Virus record (IMG/VR): IMGVR_UViG_3300032265_001293
Coordinates: 1-39,580 of that record
Source of the DNA: a virus
Length of the DNA: 39,580 nucleotides
Strand: one strand, 5' to 3'
Shown here: positions 16,643-34,529 of the stretch, piece by piece
How positions within the stretch are numbered: the first letter of the stretch is position 1
How the letters are laid out: each line of letters opens with the position of its first letter
The notes under the pieces: model-generated
The model's input: only the letters and a program-made list of their open reading frames with translations
The model's database searches: none
Told to the model about the DNA's origin: nothing
Made by a program: the position numbers and the translations under genes

Positions 16643-16649
16643 CTAAATA
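16643..16649 (+). promoter_or_regulatory. Possible T4-type late promoter (CTAAATA)
   Basis: CTAAATA resembles the TATAAATA/NATAAATA late promoter box used by T4-like phages with gp55-type sigma factors. It lies in the 107-base intergenic gap upstream of the virion-type gene block. AT-rich DNA makes chance matches likely, so this is only suggestive. Confidence 0.3.
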
Positions 16650-16744: not shown

Positions 16745-17368
16745 ATGAAGGGATTTAAGCAATATCTATCAGAAAACTCGAGCGGTGGGGGAACCCTGCA
16801 CGCATTCGACGTTGATGGAACATTAATGCACACTACCGCACGAGTCCATGTAAGAGATCAAAATGGACATCGTGTATCTTCACTTTCCCACGACGAATTC
16901 AATAACCATAAATTACATCCTGGACATCACTATGACTTTAGTGAGTTCAGATCATCACATCAATTCCACAAAGAAAAGCCAATCCGTCCGATGTTGGCTA
17001 AACTCAAAGCGATTCATAAGAATTCTCAAAAGAATCCAAAGAGCAGAGTTATAATTAATACTGCTAGATCAGACTTCGACGATAAACATCATTTCGCTCA
17101 GGCTTGGAAAAAGCATGGCGTTGATATTCACAAAATCCACGTTGAGCGTGCGGGTAATATCAAAAGCGATGAGTCGGTCGCAGCGAAGAAAGCCCAAGTG
17201 ATGAGAAAGCATTTGAAAACTGGGCGATATACAGAAGCCCACTTCTACGACGACGATAAAGAAAATCTAAGACACTTCAATAAACTTAGACACGAATTTC
17301 CTCACATTAAATTACACGCCCATCATGTGCATCCTGATGGGTCAACAAGTCATTATACGGAAGAATGA
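16745..17368 (+). CDS. HAD-superfamily phosphatase with capsid-targeting-like leader
   Basis: A 207-aa protein. HAFDVDGTLMHT carries the HAD nucleophile and acid/base Asp (Asp22, Asp24), VIINTARSD is motif II, a Lys precedes motif III, and FYDDDKENLRHF provides the motif III/IV acids. It is a likely phosphomonoesterase, possibly acting on nucleic-acid 3'-phosphates as the T4 Pnkp phosphatase does. The first ten residues MKGFKQYLSE resemble the T4 internal-protein leader (MKTYQEFIAE), with Asn following the Glu. The protein is very His-rich. The stop overlaps the next gene by ATGATG. Confidence 0.75.
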   Translation: MKGFKQYLSENSSGGGTLHAFDVDGTLMHTTARVHVRDQNGHRVSSLSHDEFNNHKLHPGHHYDFSEFRSSHQFHKEKPIRPMLAKLKAIHKNSQKNPKSRVIINTARSDFDDKHHFAQAWKKHGVDIHKIHVERAGNIKSDESVAAKKAQVMRKHLKTGRYTEAHFYDDDKENLRHFNKLRHEFPHIKLHAHHVHPDGSTSHYTEE

Positions 17369-18528
17369 TGTTAAACTTTAAATCATTTTTAAAAGAAGAA
17401 GCAGAGTTCGGTAAACTAAAACACCTCGAACATGCCGAAGATCATATCATACACCCAACTGAGCATGGCGTTCATAACGCAATAAACATATTGGATCAGG
17501 CTCACCAACATATAACGAAGGGTGTTAGCGATTCTAAGGTTAAGACAAAATGGGATGGCTCACCAAGTGTGGTATTTGGCCATCACCCACAGACTGGAAA
17601 GTTCTTTGTTGCAACAAAGTCTGCGTTCAATAAGAATCCAAAGATTAATTACACTCCAGAAGATATTGAAAAGAATCATGGCGATAAGCCAGGACTTGCT
17701 GCTAAATTAAAACATGCTCTGAAGCATTTGCCTAAAGTTGCTCCAAAGAAAGGAGTATACCAAGGCGATCTAATGCATAGCGAGGGCGATGTTAAGGGTG
17801 GTAAGTCATCGGCTTCTTTTACTCCTAATACAATTACATACACCACTCATGGCGAAGAAGCCAAGAAAGCAAAAGCATCTAAAATTGGAATCGCAGTTCA
17901 TACCAAGTATCATGGTTCTCATTTAGAGAACATGAATGCTGGTTTTGATCCAGACCTGCACAAATTTAAACATCACCCAGATGTTCACATGCTCAGCTCA
18001 GATGTCGATACTGGGAAAATCCACCATTCTCCAGAAGCTGAGGCTAATTATCAGCACCACATGGAAGCTGCTAAAGAGACACTTAAAAAAGCACCTCATG
18101 ATACTTTTGAGGTCACCCATCCGCATGCGGAACACTTGAAGACTTACATTAACAGTACGGTAAAGACTGGCGAAACGCCATCTACTGAAGGCTTTAAGAA
18201 ACATATTGAACAAAAATTAACCAATAAAGCAAAAGATATAAAGACCGAAAAGAAGAAGATCGAAAAACGTGCTGAGATAGAATCTCACTTAAGACATATT
18301 AATGATCATAAAGAACATTATAATTCACTGTTCAAAATACATCATCATCTTCAACAGGCTAAAGATGCCCTAGTTTCTTCTTTAGAAACTGGCTCCGAGT
18401 ATAACCATTCCGTTGGTAAGGAAAAAACTGGACCAGAAGGTTTTGTAATAACGCATCATGGACACCCAACTAAGCTGGTAAAGAGGAAGGAATTTTCCAA
18501 ATTTAACTTCATCAAAAGCGCGAAATAA
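17368..18528 (+). CDS. Covalent nucleotidyltransferase (RNA/DNA ligase-like) with leader
   Basis: A 386-aa protein. TKWDGSPSVVFG contains KxDG, the adenylated lysine of ATP-dependent ligases and capping enzymes (Lys61). YQGDLMHSEGD fits motif III, PEGFVITHHG fits motif IV (E-G-x-V) and KLVKRKEF fits motif V. A long His/Lys-rich helical region separates motifs III and IV. The start is taken at the second ATG, 4 bases after GGAAG; this gives MLNFKSFLKEEAE, a leader like those of T4 internal proteins. It is probably a polynucleotide ligase family member. The substrate is unknown. Confidence 0.7.
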   Translation: MLNFKSFLKEEAEFGKLKHLEHAEDHIIHPTEHGVHNAINILDQAHQHITKGVSDSKVKTKWDGSPSVVFGHHPQTGKFFVATKSAFNKNPKINYTPEDIEKNHGDKPGLAAKLKHALKHLPKVAPKKGVYQGDLMHSEGDVKGGKSSASFTPNTITYTTHGEEAKKAKASKIGIAVHTKYHGSHLENMNAGFDPDLHKFKHHPDVHMLSSDVDTGKIHHSPEAEANYQHHMEAAKETLKKAPHDTFEVTHPHAEHLKTYINSTVKTGETPSTEGFKKHIEQKLTNKAKDIKTEKKKIEKRAEIESHLRHINDHKEHYNSLFKIHHHLQQAKDALVSSLETGSEYNHSVGKEKTGPEGFVITHHGHPTKLVKRKEFSKFNFIKSAK

Positions 18529-18535
18529 ATAAATA
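18524..18535 (+). promoter_or_regulatory. Possible late promoter (AATAAATAAATA)
   Basis: Two overlapping AATAAATA boxes lie at the stop codon of the ligase-like gene and 25-30 bases before the next start, a spacing suited to a T4-type late promoter. AT-rich background lowers confidence. Confidence 0.35.
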
Positions 18536-18559
18536 ATAATAACAATTAGGATCCCCAAA

Positions 18560-20293
18560 GTGTGGGAAAATATGGAAAAAGATAAAAAAATAACATTTGC
18601 GTTTGGCAGATTCAATCCTCCAACTATTGGCCATAAGAAGCTAATAGATACTGTAAAGTCACACGCAAAAGAGCATGGCACAGACCATCTCATTATAGCC
18701 AGCCACACTCAAGATTCTAAGAAAAATCCTCTATCCCCAGAAGAGAAAGAGCATCATCTAAAGAAGCAGTTCCCCAATACCCATATTGCCATGGGAAGCA
18801 AAGAACATGCCAATATAATAGACCATTTGGATCATCTGCATAAGCAGGGCTATACCCATGCTACATTGGTTGCTGGTTCAGACAGAGTCAAATCATATAA
18901 TGATCTGATCCATAGATATAATGGCACTCATAAAGGTGCACGATATAATTTTAAGCATCTTGAAGTTAAGGATGCAGGACAAAGAGACCCAGACGCAGAG
19001 GGTACTGAGGGGGCATCAGGATCTAAACAAAGAGAACATGCCAAGGCTGGAAACTTTAAAGAGTTTGCCAGCAATGTTCCAGTTAAAAAACACGCTAAAG
19101 ATCTATACCACGCAGTGAGAAAGGGAATGAAGTTAGAAAATATCATGCCGAACTTTAAGGCATTATTTCTCGTTGGTGGTCCTGGAAGTGGAAAAGATTT
19201 CCTCATCCATTCAGTACTAGACGAATGCAAATTAAAAGAAGTATCACTAGACAAGTTGTTTACTGCTATTGTTGAGCAGACAAATATTAATGAGTTAAAT
19301 GACTTCCCATCAGTTATTGTTAATGGTAATGCAGATAATAAAGATAAGATTGTTGTTGCTAAGGTAATCTTAGAAGCAATGGGATATGATACCGCAATGG
19401 TATACGTTCATACCACAGATGAAGAATCAAAAACTAGAAATGATTCAAGAATCTTACGTGGATCAAAGACTTTTAACGAAAGTGTTCGTGAAAAGAAATA
19501 TGAACAATCAGTCTCAAACATGCACGAATATGCAGAGATGTTTGAGTCATTTGTTATATACGATAATTCAAATAACTTCTCAACAGTTAATGAAGAGATG
19601 CAGCAAGAAATTGCTAGCTGGTTAGTTGAATTATCTGACACAATTACAGGATTCCTTTCACAGTTCCCAAAGAATGAGGCGTCACTAAGATGGATTGCCG
19701 AAAGAGTTTTGGAAGTCGGAACGAAAGAAACTGCTAATTTTGCAAAGGCAATAACCCCAGGACAAGGATCGAAAAATGCTAAAACATATTCAGAAGCTGA
19801 TAGAATGGTTCCTACCAAAAGTAACAGAAACCCAAACAAAACTCCAGCAGACGGAGATAAGTGGAATGGAGGAACTCCCTCAGCAAACAAAAACGCTGCC
19901 TACATCAACACAGTCGAAGCCGTCAAAAAAGACGACAAAGAAAAAGTCGAAATCAAAAACATCAAAGACAAAAAAACCAAGCAGTCGCTCCCTCCCTCGG
20001 TAGATGGTAGAGTAGCAAGCTATGGAGTTCCATCAATGGGTGTCGCTTCAGTAGCGGGAGGAGATGTTGGTGGTTCTTTACTACAGAATGGTAATAGTAA
20101 AGGAAACAAAATACTAAACATCGGTAAAAAACAGAAAGGTAAGTTTAGAAAGTATCCAACCACTAGAGGTGGGCTTGCTAATATGAACTCTGCAACGATT
20201 GGTGGCAACATTTCAATGCAGGGATTAACAGGTCCTTATAGTACTGAAAGTATTATTAGAGAATACAAAAATATATTGAGAACAAAACAATGA
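18560..20293 (+). CDS. Bifunctional nucleotidylyltransferase / P-loop kinase with long C-terminal tail
   Basis: A 577-aa protein. Residues 11-160 are a nucleotidylyltransferase of the HIGH class: FAFGRFNPPTIGH (Gly24-His25) and VAGSDRVKSY. Residues 195-350 hold a P-loop kinase: LFLVGGPGSGKDF with Walker A at 206-213 and later Arg-rich lid residues (TRNDSRILRGS). The remaining 190 residues are low-complexity, Gly/Asn/Lys-rich. The order recalls NadR (NMN adenylyltransferase plus ribosylnicotinamide kinase), but a nucleic-acid 5'-kinase is equally possible. The start is GTG at 18560 (AGGA 8 bases upstream) or ATG at 18572. Confidence 0.75.
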   Translation: MWENMEKDKKITFAFGRFNPPTIGHKKLIDTVKSHAKEHGTDHLIIASHTQDSKKNPLSPEEKEHHLKKQFPNTHIAMGSKEHANIIDHLDHLHKQGYTHATLVAGSDRVKSYNDLIHRYNGTHKGARYNFKHLEVKDAGQRDPDAEGTEGASGSKQREHAKAGNFKEFASNVPVKKHAKDLYHAVRKGMKLENIMPNFKALFLVGGPGSGKDFLIHSVLDECKLKEVSLDKLFTAIVEQTNINELNDFPSVIVNGNADNKDKIVVAKVILEAMGYDTAMVYVHTTDEESKTRNDSRILRGSKTFNESVREKKYEQSVSNMHEYAEMFESFVIYDNSNNFSTVNEEMQQEIASWLVELSDTITGFLSQFPKNEASLRWIAERVLEVGTKETANFAKAITPGQGSKNAKTYSEADRMVPTKSNRNPNKTPADGDKWNGGTPSANKNAAYINTVEAVKKDDKEKVEIKNIKDKKTKQSLPPSVDGRVASYGVPSMGVASVAGGDVGGSLLQNGNSKGNKILNIGKKQKGKFRKYPTTRGGLANMNSATIGGNISMQGLTGPYSTESIIREYKNILRTKQ

Positions 20294-20817
20294 AAAGAAC
20301 AACAATGAATTCCCTAGTAAACGCAGTCAGAAGAGTAGTATCTGAACAGGATACTGCTAATATGGAAGCCTCAGCAAAATTAATGCTTGTTGGAGCAATG
20401 AAAAGAGTACTTGCTGATGGGTATGTTTTCTATTATGCTGCACATTCTTCTCACTGGAATGTCGAAGGCTCAAACTTCCCTCAGTATCATACGTTCTTTG
20501 AGAAAATATATACTGAAGTATTTGAGGAATTAGATAAGATTGCTGAACAAATTAGAAGCATAAATGCATACACGCCAGTATCACTAAAAGATCTATTGAC
20601 AATGACAACGATTACTGAAGCTTCTAGAGTCTATGACCCAAAAGAAATGATGTCGATGCTTGGGGTTATGAATTCAAAATTTATTGCATCAATAGATACC
20701 GCATATAGAACAGCTGATGCTGCTCATGAAATTGGTATGTCGAACTATCTTCAAGATTTAACCGATAAACAAAAGAAACTTGGCTGGATGATTGCAGCCA
20801 CATTAAAGGGCGAATAA
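20290..20817 (+). CDS. dps: Dps-like ferritin
   Basis: A 175-aa four-helix-bundle protein of the Dps family, which oxidises and stores iron and binds DNA. HSSHWNVEG is the Dps signature. Measured from His55, the ferroxidase ligands fall at His67, Glu71, Asp82 and Glu86, exactly the spacing of E. coli Dps His51, His63, Asp67, Asp78 and Glu82, with Glu replacing the first Asp. The last helix (NYLQDLTDKQKKLGWMIAAT) also matches. The N-terminus is basic (KRTTMNSLVNAVRR) followed by VVSEQD, which could be a prohead-protease site. It overlaps the preceding gene by ATGA. Confidence 0.85.
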   Translation: MKRTTMNSLVNAVRRVVSEQDTANMEASAKLMLVGAMKRVLADGYVFYYAAHSSHWNVEGSNFPQYHTFFEKIYTEVFEELDKIAEQIRSINAYTPVSLKDLLTMTTITEASRVYDPKEMMSMLGVMNSKFIASIDTAYRTADAAHEIGMSNYLQDLTDKQKKLGWMIAATLKGE

Positions 20818-20818
20818 C

Positions 20819-23077
20819 ATGAATATTTTTAGCAAACAAAACCAATCAGTAGCAGCTGCTGCCGCGAAGGTTATGGCTGAGCAACCTGCTCAAGTCAAAC
20901 CAACCACCCCAACGATTCCAAACCCAGATACGTCAATGGTCGACAGAGCTGCTGGCGTTAAAGTAACTTATGGCAGTTTATTTGGAAGAAAACTATCAGA
21001 AGAAAAGACTGAAGATGATAAGAGCGACAAGTATGCTCCTGAACACCACAGTGAGGCGGATATTAAATTAGATCGTAAACCAACTTGGCCAAAATCATCA
21101 AAACCATTAGGTAAGACAGTATCAGATTCAGCTGCCGATGGCAGAATGAAAGAAGATACCGCTGTTGGTGGTGGAAATGTTGTTGGAATGAATAGTCAAG
21201 CTGCCGCTAACTTGCCAGCACCAATTCAGAAAGAGAAAGTGGAGAAAAAGAAAATGAGAAAAGAAAGTTTTACATCAGCTGAAATTGTAAGTCATTTGAA
21301 AGAAAATACAAATGACAATGGCTGGTATGTTGATACTAAGAAAATCGGTACACCAGTTAACCACAAGTATCTTTCTCCAATGGCAGTTAAGAGACACGTA
21401 ACTGAAGCTATCATTGAAATGAATCAGATCGATCAGATTAATGAAGAAGCTGATATTTTAGAAGGTGCTATTCGCATTTCACAAATCCAAGTACATCCAT
21501 ATGAAAGTGGGTTTGCCGTAACACTTCATAGTAATAACGGTCCTCATTCTATGGAAACGCATCCAACTAAGGCAGCAGCTGTGAAGTCTGCTCATGAATG
21601 GCATAGAGCAACTGGTAAGGAAGCTAAGTTGCATCTTCCTGAAGAAGTCGAGCAGGTTGATGAATCTTTAACGCACACATTAATGCATGGCGCAGCACTA
21701 GGAGCTGGTGCAGTTGGTGGAATTGGAGCATTGGCTCTTGGGAAACATATGGTAAAAAGCGCAGTACATAGTGCCCATAATACGATTATGAGAAATCGTA
21801 TAAAGAAAGCAACAGAACAACGTCGAAATACTATGTTCGCAAAGGCTAAAGATGCTGCTGAAAAAGAAGGACATAAAGTTGACGTCAGCTCTATGCATGT
21901 CAAGGGAAGTGCGTCAGCTATACACCCAAATCATACAGTACATTTCAATTCAGACAAAGGACCACATAAGTGGAATCCGAGAACTGGCACCATCACCAAA
22001 CACACAGGAAGTTCTGTCAAAGAAGAAGTCGAGCAGGTTAATGAAGGACCATTTTCTTCTGGGGCTTTAAAGCCAACTCAGGCGATGCTCGATAAAAGCA
22101 ACTCTATCGAAAGCCATACAACATTTCGGGGTAAAGATAAAAGGGGTACATATACAGCTAAGTTGCATCGTCCAGCTGGTTCTTCTGACCATAAAGAAAT
22201 TTCTAGAGTTTATGATACAGATGAGTCTGTTGATCTCGATGAGGGTGGCATGCCTTCTAGCGTAATTAAGAGCAAGCAAGCTAGAGAAAAGATGTCACCA
22301 GAAGATTTACATGCACATGTTAAAAGTCTTCAAGCCAAGGGTGGTCCTATATTTGGCGGTAAGTCTGTAGAACACATTGCTAGAGAAATGGCATGGAGCC
22401 ATGGTCATGGTAAGATGTCACCTCATTATTGGAATAGAATTAAACATCTAGAACCTAAGAATGAAGAAGTCGAGCAGGTTGAAGAAGGTAAGGCACCTTT
22501 TGATATAAAAAACAAATTAAGAAAACTACATGGTGGTTTTGGAAAAATTAAACAAAAAGGGAAAAATACCTTTACGCACACTTCTGAAGGTGATAACGAA
22601 GATGGAGATCCAGCCAAAATTACACACACGTATAACCTAAACAAAAAAGGTAAGCTTGTTCACATAGGCACACAATCGGTTGTAGAAGAAGTCGAGCAGG
22701 TTGATGAAGGTACTCCAGAATTTAATGCAAGGGCATTGCGTTATGCTAAAGCTAATGCAGCAGAAAAAAATAAAGAAGGTAGATATAGCAAGAAATATCC
22801 TGGTGGTAAAGAACAACACGCTAAAGATACTGCTGCGTTCATGAAACGCTTTCCAGCACCAAAGAATGAAGAAGCTGAGCAGCTAGAAGCAGTTCAAAAG
22901 GCACCACAGTATCCTGTACAGGAAGCTGATAGTGATCTTCCTTTTGAAGGACCATATAAGAAATCTGGTCCTCATAAGGATAAGTTTGGAAACCCAGTTA
23001 AGAATGTTGCAAGACATTTAGCAAAGAAAGGTTTAGCAACAGCACTAAGAGCAGTTGCAAAGAAAAAAGGTAAATAA
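20819..23077 (+). CDS. Long modular virion-type protein with repeated EEVEQVDE linkers
   Basis: A 752-aa, Lys/Glu-rich protein without a recognised catalytic domain. It consists of segments separated by near-identical linkers EEVEQVDE (about residue 276), EEVEQVNE (about 403), EEVEQVEE (about 550), EEVEQVDE (about 624) and EEAEQLEA (about 685). Segments include a Gly/Ala hydrophobic helix after the first linker, a MSPEDLHAHVKSL helical module and a basic C-terminus. Each linker offers a (L/I/V)-x-E site like that cut by T4 gp21 protease, as does KVMAEQ near residue 22. It may be a polyprotein of internal head peptides or a scaffold-like protein. Confidence 0.6.
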   Translation: MNIFSKQNQSVAAAAAKVMAEQPAQVKPTTPTIPNPDTSMVDRAAGVKVTYGSLFGRKLSEEKTEDDKSDKYAPEHHSEADIKLDRKPTWPKSSKPLGKTVSDSAADGRMKEDTAVGGGNVVGMNSQAAANLPAPIQKEKVEKKKMRKESFTSAEIVSHLKENTNDNGWYVDTKKIGTPVNHKYLSPMAVKRHVTEAIIEMNQIDQINEEADILEGAIRISQIQVHPYESGFAVTLHSNNGPHSMETHPTKAAAVKSAHEWHRATGKEAKLHLPEEVEQVDESLTHTLMHGAALGAGAVGGIGALALGKHMVKSAVHSAHNTIMRNRIKKATEQRRNTMFAKAKDAAEKEGHKVDVSSMHVKGSASAIHPNHTVHFNSDKGPHKWNPRTGTITKHTGSSVKEEVEQVNEGPFSSGALKPTQAMLDKSNSIESHTTFRGKDKRGTYTAKLHRPAGSSDHKEISRVYDTDESVDLDEGGMPSSVIKSKQAREKMSPEDLHAHVKSLQAKGGPIFGGKSVEHIAREMAWSHGHGKMSPHYWNRIKHLEPKNEEVEQVEEGKAPFDIKNKLRKLHGGFGKIKQKGKNTFTHTSEGDNEDGDPAKITHTYNLNKKGKLVHIGTQSVVEEVEQVDEGTPEFNARALRYAKANAAEKNKEGRYSKKYPGGKEQHAKDTAAFMKRFPAPKNEEAEQLEAVQKAPQYPVQEADSDLPFEGPYKKSGPHKDKFGNPVKNVARHLAKKGLATALRAVAKKKGK

Positions 23078-23351
23078 CATGGATATTAAACTAGAAGAAG
23101 AAAAAATTAATCGCATGCGTCATGAAGCAATGATGCATTCTAACGCAAATGGTTTGACTAGAACTCTAGTTAATATGCGCAAGCAAATTGCTGAAGCTGT
23201 TGCTACGGTTTCTGCTGCAAAAGCTAAGTTGAAGGCGACAGAGAAAGGAAGCTGGAAGAAATCCTATGCCCCTGAAACTGAACCTAAAGAAATTCAAAAG
23301 ACTCACAACCCAGGCAAAATCTATCACGAAGAAGCTGAGCAGGTTGATGAA
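21641..23351 (+). repeat. Six dispersed copies of a 24-base linker repeat
   Basis: Copies start at 21641, 22022, 22463, 22685, 22868 and 23328, all in frame, encoding EEVEQVDE-type peptides. The first and fourth are identical over 24 bases; the second and third differ from them by one base each. The core GAAGAAGTCGAGCAGGTT is identical in four copies, including synonymous positions, which points to DNA-level copying of modules. The last copy lies in the next gene. Confidence 0.9.
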
Positions 23352-24323
23352 CTCAAGAAGGCAACTCTACGTTCATATGCAGCAAAGCGTGGAAGCCAAC
23401 CAGATGAGGGCAAGAATGGTGCCAATATTGCTCTAGCCCTAACTAAAGCCGCTGGCAAGCCACCATTTCCTGGAATGAAGAAAGCCAAAGTCAACGCAAC
23501 AGAGGATAATGAAAGCCATACTCATGCCGCTCATTTCGAAAATGATAAGGGTGAGTGGACTGGAATGCAATTATTCACAGCTAAAGACGATGATGATGCT
23601 ATTAAGAAAGCCCATGAACTTGCTAAAGAACATGGAAAACTCTCAAGTGTCGTTAGGCATGTTCAAATAAAAGAAAGTGAGATTCTCGATGAAGCCCCAT
23701 TAACAAAGGCAGAAAGAGAAGCCAAGAGAGCTGCACGTAATGCCCGCATGGCTGGCTCTGTAAAGAATGCTGTGCAGAAACTTAGTACTGCAGGAAAAAA
23801 GAAAGCAGGATTAACGAAACCTGAACCTAAGAAACCTGAAGAAACACCTCTACAGAAAATTAAAAGAGCAAATCAAGCCAAACAAGATGCTTATTATGCT
23901 AAGGGTGGTCGTGAAGGATTTGGATCAGGTGGTGGTACAAGAAATGCTTCCCCACTAGAAAAGGCAATAACAGCCGTTAAGGAAAAGCCATCAAAAGGTG
24001 CTGGAGCATCACCAGCTGAAATTGAAGCTGAAAAAGAAAGAAAGAAAAAAGAGTCCATGGCTGGTTATGAGAAAGTTAAACCACTAAAGGGTAAAATTAT
24101 TGGAGAAGATCTTAAAGTCGGTGATAAAGATGACGACGGAAAGATGGAAGTCGACAAAAGAACTGGTGGTATCATCAAACAGTCACAATCGCTTGTTGAC
24201 AAAGCCAAGAGAAAATATCTTGGTGTAAAGAAAGGCAAAACAGCGACTGGATCAGCGGCGCATGCGATTGATACCGAACCAAAGATCACAACGCCTGAAG
24301 ATAAGAAGTTAGGGAAAAAGTAA
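23079..24323 (+). CDS. Lys/Glu-rich structural-type protein with EEAEQVDEL linker
   Basis: A 414-aa protein starting at the ATG 1 base after the previous stop. Residues 1-60 form a charged helix with KQIAEAVATVSA. EEAEQVDELKKATLRSYAAK follows, a linker plus short helix seen in many marine phage proteins, then an alpha/beta segment (HTHAAHFENDKGEWTGMQLF), SEILDEAP, a long Lys/Ala-rich region and GDKDDDGKMEVDK, an EF-hand-like acidic loop. Function is unknown; the linkers suggest processing by the prohead protease, as in the preceding gene. Confidence 0.6.
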   Translation: MDIKLEEEKINRMRHEAMMHSNANGLTRTLVNMRKQIAEAVATVSAAKAKLKATEKGSWKKSYAPETEPKEIQKTHNPGKIYHEEAEQVDELKKATLRSYAAKRGSQPDEGKNGANIALALTKAAGKPPFPGMKKAKVNATEDNESHTHAAHFENDKGEWTGMQLFTAKDDDDAIKKAHELAKEHGKLSSVVRHVQIKESEILDEAPLTKAEREAKRAARNARMAGSVKNAVQKLSTAGKKKAGLTKPEPKKPEETPLQKIKRANQAKQDAYYAKGGREGFGSGGGTRNASPLEKAITAVKEKPSKGAGASPAEIEAEKERKKKESMAGYEKVKPLKGKIIGEDLKVGDKDDDGKMEVDKRTGGIIKQSQSLVDKAKRKYLGVKKGKTATGSAAHAIDTEPKITTPEDKKLGKK

Positions 24324-26179: not shown

Positions 26180-26419
26180 ATGCTGAAGTTTAAAGATTTT
26201 ATTTCAGAAACAGTTTGTTCCGATGGCGGCATTCGTGGACTAGGTAATGTCACAGGTGCTGCTGATGGAAGCTCAACCAACTACGCTTCGATCAATTTTG
26301 CGACAGCGGATCAAAGAAATGATATAATCCGCAAGCAAGTGTCTCAACACCAAACTTTACATGACCCACAAACCCCAGATGACCCGAAGACAGTAGATAA
26401 TAAAAAGCAGAAGAAATAA
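26180..26419 (+). CDS. Small leader-bearing protein, possible capsid cargo
   Basis: A 79-aa protein beginning MLKFKDFISETV, like the T4 internal-protein leader with cleavage expected after ISE. The remainder is polar and Gly/Ser/Asn-rich (GGIRGLGNVTGAADGSS), with a basic disordered C-terminus (KTVDNKKQKK). No known domain is visible. It is followed by a gene with a similar leader, overlapping by one base. Confidence 0.6.
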   Translation: MLKFKDFISETVCSDGGIRGLGNVTGAADGSSTNYASINFATADQRNDIIRKQVSQHQTLHDPQTPDDPKTVDNKKQKK

Positions 26420-30761: not shown

Positions 30762-31457
30762 ATGAAAAATTTAATCAAAGCATTATTATGTTTGGTTGCA
30801 TTTACATCATTATCAGCGCACGCACAATCAGCATCAACCAACTCAATTTATCTTGAGCAAATCGGCGATTCGAGCACCATCACTCTTTTACAAAAGGGTT
30901 CTGGTAACCAGATGGGGACTACAGTGTCACCATTTTACATGAATGGTAATCAGCAAATACTAAACTTCACACAAGAAGGTAACAATAACTCCTTACAGGG
31001 GCAAATTTTAAGTTCAAGTGTGAATTCTAATATTCTTAATAGTGGTAACTCCAACTTGATTAAACTAGACATGGGTGGCTCGGCATCTGTATCTGGTACA
31101 TCTTTTAATATGAATTTAGTTGGTACATCTAACTCATTTGAATTAGACCAGGGTACGGTTGGTGCATCGACAAGTGCAACATTAACATATAATCTAACTG
31201 GTGACTGGAATACATTTAAGAACCAAATTGATACAAATAATGTTGTGAATACATTTAATTTAACTGGCGACCACAATGAAATTGGCGTTTCACAGAATGG
31301 ACATGATGGTAAAAATATTGACTTCACATTAGTTGGAAGTGGCAACTCTTTTAACATTCAACAGAAGAGTATTTTAAATGTTGATTCACTTAAAATTGAT
31401 TCAATTTCTAACAACGGTACTTTTACTATTAGCCAGTGCCCACCTTTGGGCTGCTAG
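30762..31457 (+). CDS. Curlin-like secreted amyloid protein (CsgA/CsgB type)
   Basis: A 231-aa protein with a Sec signal peptide (KNLIKALLCLVAFTSLSAHA). The mature part is rich in Asn, Gln, Gly, Ser and Thr with degenerate curlin repeats of the type N/S-x5-Q-x-G-x-x-N, for example IYLEQIGDSSTITLLQKGSGNQ shortened as LEQIGDSS and LLQKGSGN, LNFTQEGNNN and FNIQQK, and LVGTSNSF. This is the substrate expected for the CsgG/CsgF pore just upstream. It ends CPPLGC, two Cys unusual for curlins. Its last 80 bases also encode the signal peptide of the next gene. Confidence 0.82.
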   Translation: MKNLIKALLCLVAFTSLSAHAQSASTNSIYLEQIGDSSTITLLQKGSGNQMGTTVSPFYMNGNQQILNFTQEGNNNSLQGQILSSSVNSNILNSGNSNLIKLDMGGSASVSGTSFNMNLVGTSNSFELDQGTVGASTSATLTYNLTGDWNTFKNQIDTNNVVNTFNLTGDHNEIGVSQNGHDGKNIDFTLVGSGNSFNIQQKSILNVDSLKIDSISNNGTFTISQCPPLGC

Positions 31458-32490
31458 TAGCATAGGTTCTATAACTGCTCTAAATGGGTCTAGTGAACTA
31501 TATCGCCAAAAAGCGAAAATAGACACTAGACCCACTTTAGGTGTGGAGTCCCTCGATGATGTTAGAACAGGAAATGGGCGTCTAGAGATAACCTTTCTAG
31601 ATGATAGCAAAGTGCGCATGACCGAACAGTCAAAGTTGCTTATAGATGAATTTGTATACGATCCTAATCCATCCAAGTCTAAAATGTCTATGCGTTTTGC
31701 GCAGGGAACTGCGCGTTTTGTTACTGGGCAATTGGGCAAGGTTGACAAGCAGAATATTAAACTCAGCACTCCTACAGCAACTATTGCTGTTCGTGGTACA
31801 GATTTTACAACTACCGTAGATGAGTTCGGGAGAAGTCTTGTAATACTTCTCCCAGAAGCAGATGGTAAGGTTGGAGAGATTACGGTTTCAAATCTGGCTG
31901 GCTTTGTTATTATGAACCAAGCTTTTCAAGCAACAATGGTGGCATCGGCAGAAAAGATGCCGACTAATCCTAGTGTTATACAAGGATTAGATCTCAATTT
32001 AATTGATAACATGTTAATCGTAACTCCCCCAAAAGAAGTAGCCAAACCAGTAGAAAGAACTGATGGTAAGAGAGATATGTCAACTTCATTTTTCGGTGAA
32101 GATGCTCTCAAGAAAGACTATCTCAGTAATGCTGATTTCAATAGAGACGAACTAAAGACGACTTCGACTATCGATTTTAATGCGATTAATAATACCTTCT
32201 TTGAAGACTTCTTTTATCTAAACCAAGATACAAACCAGACGGGAGGTATGACGAAGGGTGGAGTGACAATCCAAGGAACTTCTTTTGGGATGGATAAGAC
32301 TACGCAAATAAATACCGTGGTAGAAGATCCGTTTTTGGTTATATTTCGTCAATTGTCTCAAACTTTTGAGTTAATCACGGAAAAAACTAGCACGGCAACA
32401 ATTAATCTAACTCAGAATAATAAGTCTTATACAATAATTTTAAACAACGGAACTGGCGGTACAGTAATCAATATCAATCAAGGAAATTGA
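31378..32490 (+). CDS. Secreted FecR-domain protein
   Basis: A 370-aa protein with a strong Sec signal peptide (LIQFLTTVLLLLASAHLWA) whose coding sequence lies wholly inside the end of the curlin gene in another frame. The mature N-terminus (SSIGSITALNGSSELYR, DDVRTGNGRLEITFLDDSKV, TATIAVRGTDFTT) is a FecR periplasmic domain; the G-T-A-R-F and I-A-V-R-G-T-D-F motifs are diagnostic. Residues 240-370 are Asn/Thr-rich and repetitive near the end (INLTQNNKSYTIILNNGTGG), reminiscent of the curlin. In bacteria FecR proteins often sit next to CHASE2 cyclases, as here. Confidence 0.85.
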   Translation: MLIHLKLIQFLTTVLLLLASAHLWAASSIGSITALNGSSELYRQKAKIDTRPTLGVESLDDVRTGNGRLEITFLDDSKVRMTEQSKLLIDEFVYDPNPSKSKMSMRFAQGTARFVTGQLGKVDKQNIKLSTPTATIAVRGTDFTTTVDEFGRSLVILLPEADGKVGEITVSNLAGFVIMNQAFQATMVASAEKMPTNPSVIQGLDLNLIDNMLIVTPPKEVAKPVERTDGKRDMSTSFFGEDALKKDYLSNADFNRDELKTTSTIDFNAINNTFFEDFFYLNQDTNQTGGMTKGGVTIQGTSFGMDKTTQINTVVEDPFLVIFRQLSQTFELITEKTSTATINLTQNNKSYTIILNNGTGGTVININQGN

Positions 32491-32492
32491 TC

Positions 32493-34529
32493 ATGAAGAA
32501 ATTATTATCTCCGTGGCTTGCATTGATCACGCTATTTGTGATGATTGGTGTTCGTTATGAAAATCCAACTTTCATCGAGAGCGTTAGATTGCGCTACTTC
32601 GATACTTTAATCACATCTAAGAAACCAACAGAGAACAATGTTTATACCGTAAACATTGATGAGGATTCTTTAAACAAATATGGTCAATGGCCATTCCCCA
32701 GATCAGAGTATTCATACATCATTCAAGAACTCTACAAGAGAAATGCTGGTCTGGTTATTCTAGACGTTTTGATGCCAGAACGCGATAGGTTTGGTGAAGA
32801 TGCTCTATTAGCCAAAACAATAACAAAATACCCAGTCATATTGGCTAATATTCCAGCAGAAAAAACAAAGAACAATCCTAAAGTTCCTGGTGCTGTAATT
32901 ATTGGTTCAGAGTTTGAAGATAAAATCGTCAAGTATCCTGGATTAATCGCGAACGTACCAGCACTAGAAGAAAATGCCATTGGCGTTGGTAGTGTTAATA
33001 CTATGCCTGAGATTGATGGTGTTAATCGTCGTGCCCCTTTAGTATCTACAGTAGAGGGTAAGATATATCCATCACTAGCCATGGAAGTGTTACGCGTGGC
33101 TGCTGGTGATAACACAGTACAAATTAAACTAAATGAGAATGGCGTAGAGAAAATGCGCATTCCTAGTTTTGGTCCCATAACAACAGACTCATTAGGTCGC
33201 GTCTGGATTGATTGGTCTCAAAAGGATAAGCAAGTATCATTAGCATATCTTCCTGAAGATTTTAATGGTGCAATGGTTATTGTTGGACCAACTGCTGCTG
33301 GTATTGCTAATCCACTATCAACTCCCGTTGGAGCATCATACCCACAAGACATACAAGCATCATTAATTTATACAATGATGAATGGTGTTGTAATTTCAAG
33401 ACCAGACTACGCTGACAGTTTAGAGTTGCTTTCTATTCTAATAGCAGGTATACTATTATTAATTCTTACGAGGTGGACATATGTTGGACTTGCGTCAATT
33501 CCTATTATCATTTTTAGTGCTGCGTATGGTAGCCACTGGGCTTTTGTCAATCACCTTTGGTTATTTGACATTACTGCCTTCATCGGAGCAACCGTGTTGG
33601 TTGCGCTCCATGCATACGGAATCAAGTTCGTCTCAGAGTTCCTGCAAAAGCAGCAAATCAAAAAACAGTTTGGAACATATCTATCCCCCGCGATGGTAGA
33701 AAAATTACAAAAGAATCCAGAGTTATTAACTCTTGGTGGTGAAGAGCGTGAACTTTCTATTATGTTCACTGATGTTCGCGGCTTCACAAGTATCTCTGAA
33801 CACTATGGAAAAGATGTGCAGGGATTAACTAAAATTATGAATCGCTACATGACTGCAATGACTGCAAAAATCATTGAGAATGAGGGTACTCTTGACAAGT
33901 ACATCGGCGATGCTCAGATGGCGTTCTGGAATGCACCACTTGATGACGCTAATCACGCAAAAAACGCAGTGAAAACTGCCCTTTTAATGTTAAAAGACTT
34001 GGAGAAGTTTAATGAAGAAATATCTAAAGAATCTGTTCCTCCATTCGGATTGGGAATCGGCATTAACACTGGTCGTGTTGTCGTTGGTAATATGGGCAGC
34101 GTTCAAAGGTTTGACTACACCTGTCTCGGAGACGCTGTCAACCTGGCAAGTCGTCTCGAAGGGCAATCAAAGCCATATGGTGTTAAACTTATCCTCGGAC
34201 CAATTACAGCAGAGCAAATAGCAGACGAATATCAGCTGATTGAACTCGATTTGATCGCAGTAAAGGGTAAAACGGAGCCAGTTAAGATCTATACAGTCGC
34301 CCCTGCCGATGATGTCATGGCAGGTAACCAGCATGAGAAGTTCCTAGATGCTTATAGAAAAGGTCAGTGGAAAGCTGCTAAGTTTTACATTAATGGTATG
34401 GGACAATGGGGTGGTCTCAAGACGGGCTGGAATGGCGAAATGAATAAATACTATGACGCAATGTTAGAGAGAATGGAAGGCGAAGTGCCAGAAGGCTGGG
34501 ATGGAGTTTTCAGAGCAACAAGCAAATAA
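32493..34529 (+). CDS. CHASE2-domain class III adenylate cyclase
   Basis: A 678-aa membrane protein. After an N-terminal membrane helix comes a periplasmic CHASE2 sensor (VNIDEDSLNKYGQWPFPRSE, GLVILDVLMPERDRFG, DGVNRRAPLV). Three membrane helices follow at about 305-375, then a class III cyclase: MFTDVRGFTSISE (metal Asp), LDKYIGDAQMAFWN (second metal Asp and purine-binding Lys), FDYTCLGDAVNLASRLEG (Asp/Thr region and transition-state Arg). All catalytic residues for making cAMP from ATP are present. The ATG at 32493 follows AGGAAA; it lies 2 bases after the FecR stop. A phage-borne adenylate cyclase is unusual. Confidence 0.9.
   Translation: MKKLLSPWLALITLFVMIGVRYENPTFIESVRLRYFDTLITSKKPTENNVYTVNIDEDSLNKYGQWPFPRSEYSYIIQELYKRNAGLVILDVLMPERDRFGEDALLAKTITKYPVILANIPAEKTKNNPKVPGAVIIGSEFEDKIVKYPGLIANVPALEENAIGVGSVNTMPEIDGVNRRAPLVSTVEGKIYPSLAMEVLRVAAGDNTVQIKLNENGVEKMRIPSFGPITTDSLGRVWIDWSQKDKQVSLAYLPEDFNGAMVIVGPTAAGIANPLSTPVGASYPQDIQASLIYTMMNGVVISRPDYADSLELLSILIAGILLLILTRWTYVGLASIPIIIFSAAYGSHWAFVNHLWLFDITAFIGATVLVALHAYGIKFVSEFLQKQQIKKQFGTYLSPAMVEKLQKNPELLTLGGEERELSIMFTDVRGFTSISEHYGKDVQGLTKIMNRYMTAMTAKIIENEGTLDKYIGDAQMAFWNAPLDDANHAKNAVKTALLMLKDLEKFNEEISKESVPPFGLGIGINTGRVVVGNMGSVQRFDYTCLGDAVNLASRLEGQSKPYGVKLILGPITAEQIADEYQLIELDLIAVKGKTEPVKIYTVAPADDVMAGNQHEKFLDAYRKGQWKAAKFYINGMGQWGGLKTGWNGEMNKYYDAMLERMEGEVPEGWDGVFRATSK

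Follow-up and report, generated by a model that had tools for sequence, protein, structure and literature searches.

What is the role of three adjacent genes in a T4-like phage that appear to encode a phosphatase, a ligase-like protein and a nucleotidyltransferase joined to a kinase? The genes lie at positions 16745-20293 of the IMG/VR virus record IMGVR_UViG_3300032265_001293; "the window" refers to the whole stretch of 39,580 nt that was analysed. The original prediction, made from the DNA letters, held that the three genes stand behind one promoter and supply the activities needed to heal and seal broken RNA or DNA, as in T4 Pnkp plus Rnl1, that two of the products carry capsid-targeting-like leaders and that a HIGH-type nucleotidyltransferase domain is an extra. 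We report that the middle gene, of the DUF6267 family, has the conserved motifs and predicted fold of a ligase, and that the nucleotidyltransferase is its constant neighbour. The chances seem to us about even that the trio is a nucleic-acid end-healing and sealing kit, likeliest for RNA, that is at least partly loaded into the head and co-injected with the genome. The genes are the following.

16745..17368, + strand: HAD-superfamily phosphatase, candidate 3'-end phosphatase, 207 aa (open reading frame (ORF), motifs, phrog_415)
17365..18528, + strand: DUF6267 protein, 387 aa, predicted divergent ligase of the covalent-nucleotidyltransferase fold (PF19782, AF2 model, structural matches)
18560..20293, + strand: HIGH-superfamily nucleotidyltransferase plus P-loop kinase, followed by a low-complexity tail, here referred to as NTK (TIGR00125, phrog_3041, Foldseek)

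The three ORFs are co-oriented and sit exactly where they had been placed, with a 4-nt overlap (ATGA) between HAD and DUF6267 and a 31-nt gap between DUF6267 and NTK.

The central ORF belongs to a family of uncharacterised role (Pfam PF19782, E 8.9e-102), and the original prediction, which called the product a KxDG ligase-like protein, proposed structure prediction followed by a structural search. The AlphaFold (AF2) model has a mean pLDDT of 89.8 with disorder confined to the first 14 residues, and all 50 matches listed for it by VIA-align are RNA or DNA ligases (Z 6.1-8.7). The best is the Naegleria RNA ligase (Z 8.7 across 183 residues); fungal Trl1 (7.6), REL1 (7.5), T4 Rnl2 (7.1), T4 Rnl1 (7.0) and DNA ligases (6-7) are also listed. 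Relatives were aligned, at first 39 from viral contigs and later 86 that were non-redundant, and the larger set was used to look for motifs IV and V, whose absence would tell against a ligase; both are present and near-invariant.

17548..17559, + strand: ligase motif I, K62-W-D-G65, with the lysine as the expected site of adenylation (K62 in 85/86 relatives, one gap)
17761..17769, + strand: ligase motif III-like Q133-G-D135 (G134 in 85/86, D135 in 84/86)
18031..18387, + strand: helical insertion, residues 223-341, after the motif III/IIIa region and before motif IV (DSSP of the model)
18436..18447, + strand: ligase motif IV, E358-G-F-V361 (E in 85/86, G in 86/86)
18472..18486, + strand: ligase motif V, K370-L-V-K-R374 (K370 in 86/86, R374 in 83/86)

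The KxDG lysine is K62 when counted from the first Met and K61 from the second, and in motif V the second basic residue is shifted to R374. The 295-aa DUF6267 form of S-CREM2 (gp87) lacks the helical insertion and keeps every motif. DUF6267 thus has the features of the ligase superfamily (motif I, motifs III, IV and V, and the predicted fold), and it is the uniform list of ligases together with the conserved motifs that leads us to read it as a ligase. The model supports a previously unrecognised ligase family whose kinship is undetectable by sequence. Two narrower assignments were rejected. At E 10, 25 Pfam families are listed for 39 DUF6267 members, and neither PF09511 (T4 Rnl1) nor PF09414 (Rnl2) is one of them. 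An OB domain with motif VI is defining for ATP-dependent DNA ligases, and the DUF6267 chain ends ~13 residues past motif V in the AF2 model, with no OB domain or motif VI. The family was not found by name in the literature searched; it may have been mentioned earlier by Burroughs and Aravind 2016 (RNA-repair systems).

In cyanophages DUF6267 corresponds to the core gene T4-GC 71 and the nucleotidyltransferase to T4-GC 190, and the gene order is shared with the present phage. DUF6267 matches 462 phage records, mostly cyanophages, where it is annotated as unknown; T4-GC 71 and T4-GC 190 are annotated as hypothetical protein and cytidyltransferase, respectively, annotations that propose no ligase function. 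Linkage was counted at DUF6267 loci whose downstream sequence runs to at least 3 kb (43 freshwater-type and 32 pelagiphage-type), many of which are close relatives and hence not independent. A nucleotidyltransferase was present within 3 kb of DUF6267 at 43/43 and 32/32 of these (75/75), and a kinase at 35/43 and 22/32. Ligase and nucleotidyltransferase also occur as a single polypeptide, of 650 aa at two loci (L216, L218) and of 591 aa in one S-PM2 record. In the S-PM2 record NC_006820 (L082, 7986-9765), DUF6267 appears to be divided, one part being T4-GC 71 and the other the first half of T4-GC 190; the S-PM2 record LN828717 is uninterrupted at this place, which suggests a sequence difference or an error. 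Kinase and nucleotidyltransferase are one chain in the present phage, and HTVC008M-type phages (pelagiphages) encode the kinase in a gene of its own. When loci were centred on the HAD gene, 65 of 80 had it flanked by a gene for a ligase, a nucleotidyltransferase or a kinase, mostly with overlap. Phosphatase, ligase and kinase are thus genetically linked, as had been expected; the nucleotidyltransferase is no extra but the constant and at times fused partner of the ligase, with kinase and HAD being optional. Because of this constant adjacency and occasional fusion, ligase and nucleotidyltransferase form the core and kinase and HAD are accessories. The T4-type RNA ligase families PF09511 and PF09414 were not found in 12 related phages, while the T4 control was positive for PF09511.

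At seven loci (L016, L022, L032, L043, L055, L076 and L003) uncharacterised proteins of 263-469 aa lie between the ligase and NTK genes. Some of these have a leader, and they carry NPSDxxV...GxSxKSS motifs reminiscent of PD-(D/E)XK nucleases; a Pfam scan of five of them gave zero matches.

For the HAD protein the full set of catalytic motifs (D22xD24, T106, K149 and D169D170) is invariant among 21 relatives, which places it in the HAD phosphatase superfamily in agreement with the original prediction. It matches phrog_415, "polynucleotide kinase", at E 9.4e-8, and of the T4 proteins PseT ranked first against it with an hhalign probability of just 20%. A profile scan matched 478 stretches, and tblastn against 50,697 phage records gave zero matches. 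We infer that it is a candidate 3'-phosphatase.

Both domains expected in NTK were found, on the basis of TxGH and SxSxxR motifs for the nucleotidyltransferase and of AAA_33 and Zeta_toxin for the kinase.

18575..19144, + strand: nucleotidyltransferase domain of PPAT/NadD-like fold, with TIGH at 18623-18634 and SGSKQR at 19016-19033
19148..19609, + strand: P-loop kinase domain, with Walker A GGPGSGKD at 19175-19198 (Zeta_toxin, AAA_33)

The whole protein matches TIGR00125 (E 4.1e-8) and phrog_3041 (E 8e-55) and, using Foldseek, ATP sulfurylase (1e-7), NadR (2e-7) and mammalian PNKP (1e-4). Among 34 aligned relatives TxGH is present in 32 and S[GA][TS]xxR in all, and VIA-align of the nucleotidyltransferase domain gave PPAT/NadD-like matches with Z up to 15.1. 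The isolated kinase domain matches Zeta_toxin and AAA_33 in 15/15 relatives, its catalytic Asp is conserved, and its PDB matches include zeta toxin (3.6e-5), PSTK (5.5e-5) and a Pnkp-type kinase (0.0035).

The T4 capsid-targeting sequence comprises the first ten residues of IPIII (MKTYQEFIAE), where positions 4 and 7 direct targeting and positions 8 and 10 processing (PMC9026906). As had been noticed, two of the three proteins have such leaders, and both match the T4 sequence at positions 4, 7, 8 and 10.

16745..16774, + strand: capsid-targeting-like leader of HAD, MKGFKQYLSE (F4, Y7, L8 and E10 match T4 IPIII)
17368..17397, + strand: capsid-targeting-like leader of the ligase, MLNFKSFLKE, from the second Met (strict T4-type pattern)

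The strict pattern M..[FYL]..[FYH][LIVF].E was detected in 72/87 DUF6267 ORFs and 23/43 HAD ORFs vs 25/653 (4%) of the other ORFs of related loci, on four ORFs of the window and, in ~61 kb of T4, on IPII and IPIII only. For calibration, the mass-spectrometry virion proteome of S-CREM2, as given in Table 3 of PMC10665884, was compared with the S-CREM2 genome (OR473000): on that table's listing 5/5 strict-pattern ORFs are in the virion vs 47/157 other ORFs (Fisher p 0.003), and a looser pattern, tried before the strict one, gave p 0.035. The five are a SAM hydrolase, an APH-like kinase, a cytidylyltransferase, gp13 and gp136. The nucleotidyltransferase is a cyanophage core virion protein (T4-GC 190) and was found in virions of S-SM1 (PMC3037559) and S-SZBM1 (PMC9146016), the latter protein bearing the leader, and S-SCSM1 virions contain an NMNAT-like protein (PMC9602691); with S-CREM2 included, the nucleotidyltransferase is in the virions of at least four cyanophages. 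That the pattern is rare elsewhere, matches the positions mapped in T4 and marks virion proteins in S-CREM2 favours the capsid-targeting reading, and packaging of HAD and ligase in the present phage is a calibrated prediction. No leader is present on the ligase of the marine relatives examined, and ligase packaging would be lineage-specific.

Other proteins also have leader-like sequences. The virion-detected S-CREM2 proteins gp12, gp6 and gp14 (Cas9-like nuclease, SAM hydrolase and APH-like kinase) carry a T4-type leader or an internal copy, e.g. RFASFMAEAA at residues 18-27 of the Cas9; the part of PMC10665884 used here makes no mention of a T4-type leader on the virion proteins. In the window, further ORFs with capsid-targeting-like leaders are those at 26180 (MLKFKDFISE), 26419 (MKTFKEHIIK), 35029 (MKTFKQLREE) and 35559 (MKTFKSFLEE), the last an ORF with DUF6321. 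Moreover, two proteins of 752 aa (20819-23077) and 422 aa (23055-24323) have recurrent EEVEQVDEG/EEAEQ motifs, possibly prohead-protease sites of internal head proteins; the former has a 92% identical relative at locus L079.

In the mechanism that we favour, the T4-type leader would send both HAD and the ligase into the core of the prohead and would be clipped by the prohead protease, and the two enzymes would reach the host ahead of any phage gene expression. HAD would strip 3'-phosphates, the P-loop kinase would restore 5'-phosphates, and DUF6267, judging from its fold and motifs, would form Lys-AMP at K62 and then seal 5'-P/3'-OH ends, with the HIGH nucleotidyltransferase as its obligate partner acting on some nucleotidyl substrate. 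In this way RNA cut by host defence, perhaps in tRNA anticodon loops, could be mended immediately; tRNA cleavage by host defences is a known reason for phage RNA repair (PMC9503650, PMC7824862). What we infer is the catalysis, the substrates, the ligase cofactor, the role of the nucleotidyltransferase and, for this phage, that HAD and ligase are delivered. A more specific version, which we consider improbable, is that a new RNA ligase family and an obligate HIGH nucleotidyltransferase, which recharges the ligase or handles a by-product, are capsid-delivered to seal cleaved tRNA or mRNA before expression, e.g. an NAD+-driven ligase with NMN recycled to NAD+.

Several points weigh against an end-healing and sealing kit. 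To our knowledge there is no RNA-damage phenotype. No known ligase was related to DUF6267 by sequence in a PDB profile search, against Pfam at E 10 or by hhalign against T4 proteins, where T4 RnlA was aligned around motifs IV/V with a score that is not significant. The best match in a plain Foldseek search against PDB was a DNA ligase, and weak (E 0.028). Possibly, Z values of 7-9 reflect a coincidental arrangement, the case resting on the uniform ligase list and the motifs. HAD is present at just 7/43 freshwater-type and 0/32 pelagiphage-type ligase loci, and its PNKP or Swiss-army-knife phosphatase likeness is under the curated cut-offs (HAD_PNKP, E 0.016; HAD_SAK, 0.009-0.07), Acid_phosphat_B being better in some members. 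The Walker A of the kinase ends in D (GSGKD, not GSGK[ST]) in 64/103 relatives, this phage included, and the pelagiphage lineage has GSGK[ST] for the most part; given GSGKD, the activity of this kinase is not certain. Finally, the NTK of the window has no leader, although NTK relatives do carry MKSFLELxEE, and the S-SZBM1 ligase lacks a leader and is absent from the listed virion proteins (PMC9146016).

The same healing and sealing chemistry could instead mend broken DNA of the injected phage genome. Eukaryotes, too, repair DNA with a set of HAD phosphatase, P-loop kinase and ligase, DNA ligases share the VIA-align list, the trio is next to polymerase, UvsX and helicase genes, and its products would travel with the DNA. 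The top structural matches of DUF6267 are nevertheless all RNA ligases and no OB-like domain or motif VI follows its motif V; because of these fold matches and the missing OB domain we favour RNA, and consider DNA-end repair unlikely. Less likely again is cofactor salvage, where NTK would be a NadR-like NMN adenylyltransferase/ribosylnicotinamide kinase rebuilding NAD+ early in infection and a small molecule would be the substrate of the ligase-like protein. Among the Foldseek matches of NTK, NadR ranks third and has an identical domain order, and authors of virion proteomics papers (among them PMC9602691) propose NAD synthesis for cyanophage "NMNAT" proteins. This published NMNAT reading is a live rival for the nucleotidyltransferase domain. 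Yet NTK was rejected as a NadR member (TIGR01526, 15.1 bits vs a cut-off of 341) and is also far under the curated cut-offs for NadD (16.5 vs 112 bits) and CoaD (13 vs 103 bits), it is nearer PPAT by its TxGH motif and by its best match in fold, and its kinase has zeta/PSTK/Pnkp likeness; salvage would also leave the constant polynucleotide-ligase-like partner and HAD unexplained. Alternatively, the proteins might be packaged effectors that AMPylate a protein or small molecule, or a scaffold in head morphogenesis, with no nucleic-acid sealing. Adjoining genes do encode other leader-bearing or internal-type proteins and the nucleotidyltransferase is found in virions, but scaffolding would not need the near-invariant active sites of ligase, HAD and nucleotidyltransferase, and we regard this explanation as improbable too.

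Taken as an end-healing and sealing kit, the trio resembles T4 Pnkp (PseT) and RNA ligase 1 (RnlA) in that phosphatase, kinase and ligase are predicted in one phage, with a HAD phosphatase and an Rnl fold. The comparison made in the original prediction holds for these predicted activities and for the predicted ligase fold, and fails at the family level, the trio lying outside the T4 Rnl1, Rnl2 and Pnkp families: DUF6267 is outside PF09511, HAD and kinase are separate ORFs rather than one chain as in Pnkp, and there is a constant nucleotidyltransferase partner. Unlike T4 RnlA and PseT, whose N-termini are without such a leader, HAD and ligase carry packaging leaders. With the ligase domains of Naegleria RNA ligase, Trl1, REL1 and T4 Rnl2, DUF6267 shares the predicted nucleotidyltransferase fold and motifs I, III, IV and V; unlike these it has no detectable sequence similarity, a helical insertion of ~120 residues before motif IV and no separate C-terminal domain. 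NTK has the NadR order, HIGH nucleotidyltransferase then P-loop kinase, and differs from NadR in its family score, in its zeta/PSTK/Pnkp-type kinase and in being linked to a ligase. The ten-residue leader is that of T4 IPII/IPIII, whereas the T4 internal proteins are small anti-restriction proteins or of uncharacterised role and the cargo here is enzymes.

As to the surroundings of the trio, genes for DNA polymerase, UvsX and a primase-helicase lie upstream. The one promoter that had been proposed was not borne out, promoter-like sites being no more frequent than in shuffles, and promoter and terminator scans gave nothing above chance level. CTAAATA, a late-promoter candidate, is present at 16643 upstream of HAD; the motif is below chance frequency in the window. 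PADLOC returned nothing of note. Directly behind the trio, a Dps/ferritin-like protein (20290-20817; Pfam Ferritin, 4e-20), whose gene start at 20290 overlaps the NTK end, has homologues that trail the set in several relatives. Further away, 31378-34529 encodes a FecR-domain protein and then a protein that combines CHASE2 with a class III adenylate/guanylate cyclase (Pfam 3e-39 and 3e-19), a phage-borne enzyme of cyclic-nucleotide signalling that has its own PHROG (phrog_35576).

With a ligase identity assigned to the DUF6267-nucleotidyltransferase pair, a gene that is widespread in ocean phages becomes open to testing, and the leader pattern gives a simple means of predicting which enzymes T4-like phages package in their heads. 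If true, defence by injected proteins, an idea that in T4 concerns small inhibitors, would grow to take in a set of repair enzymes.

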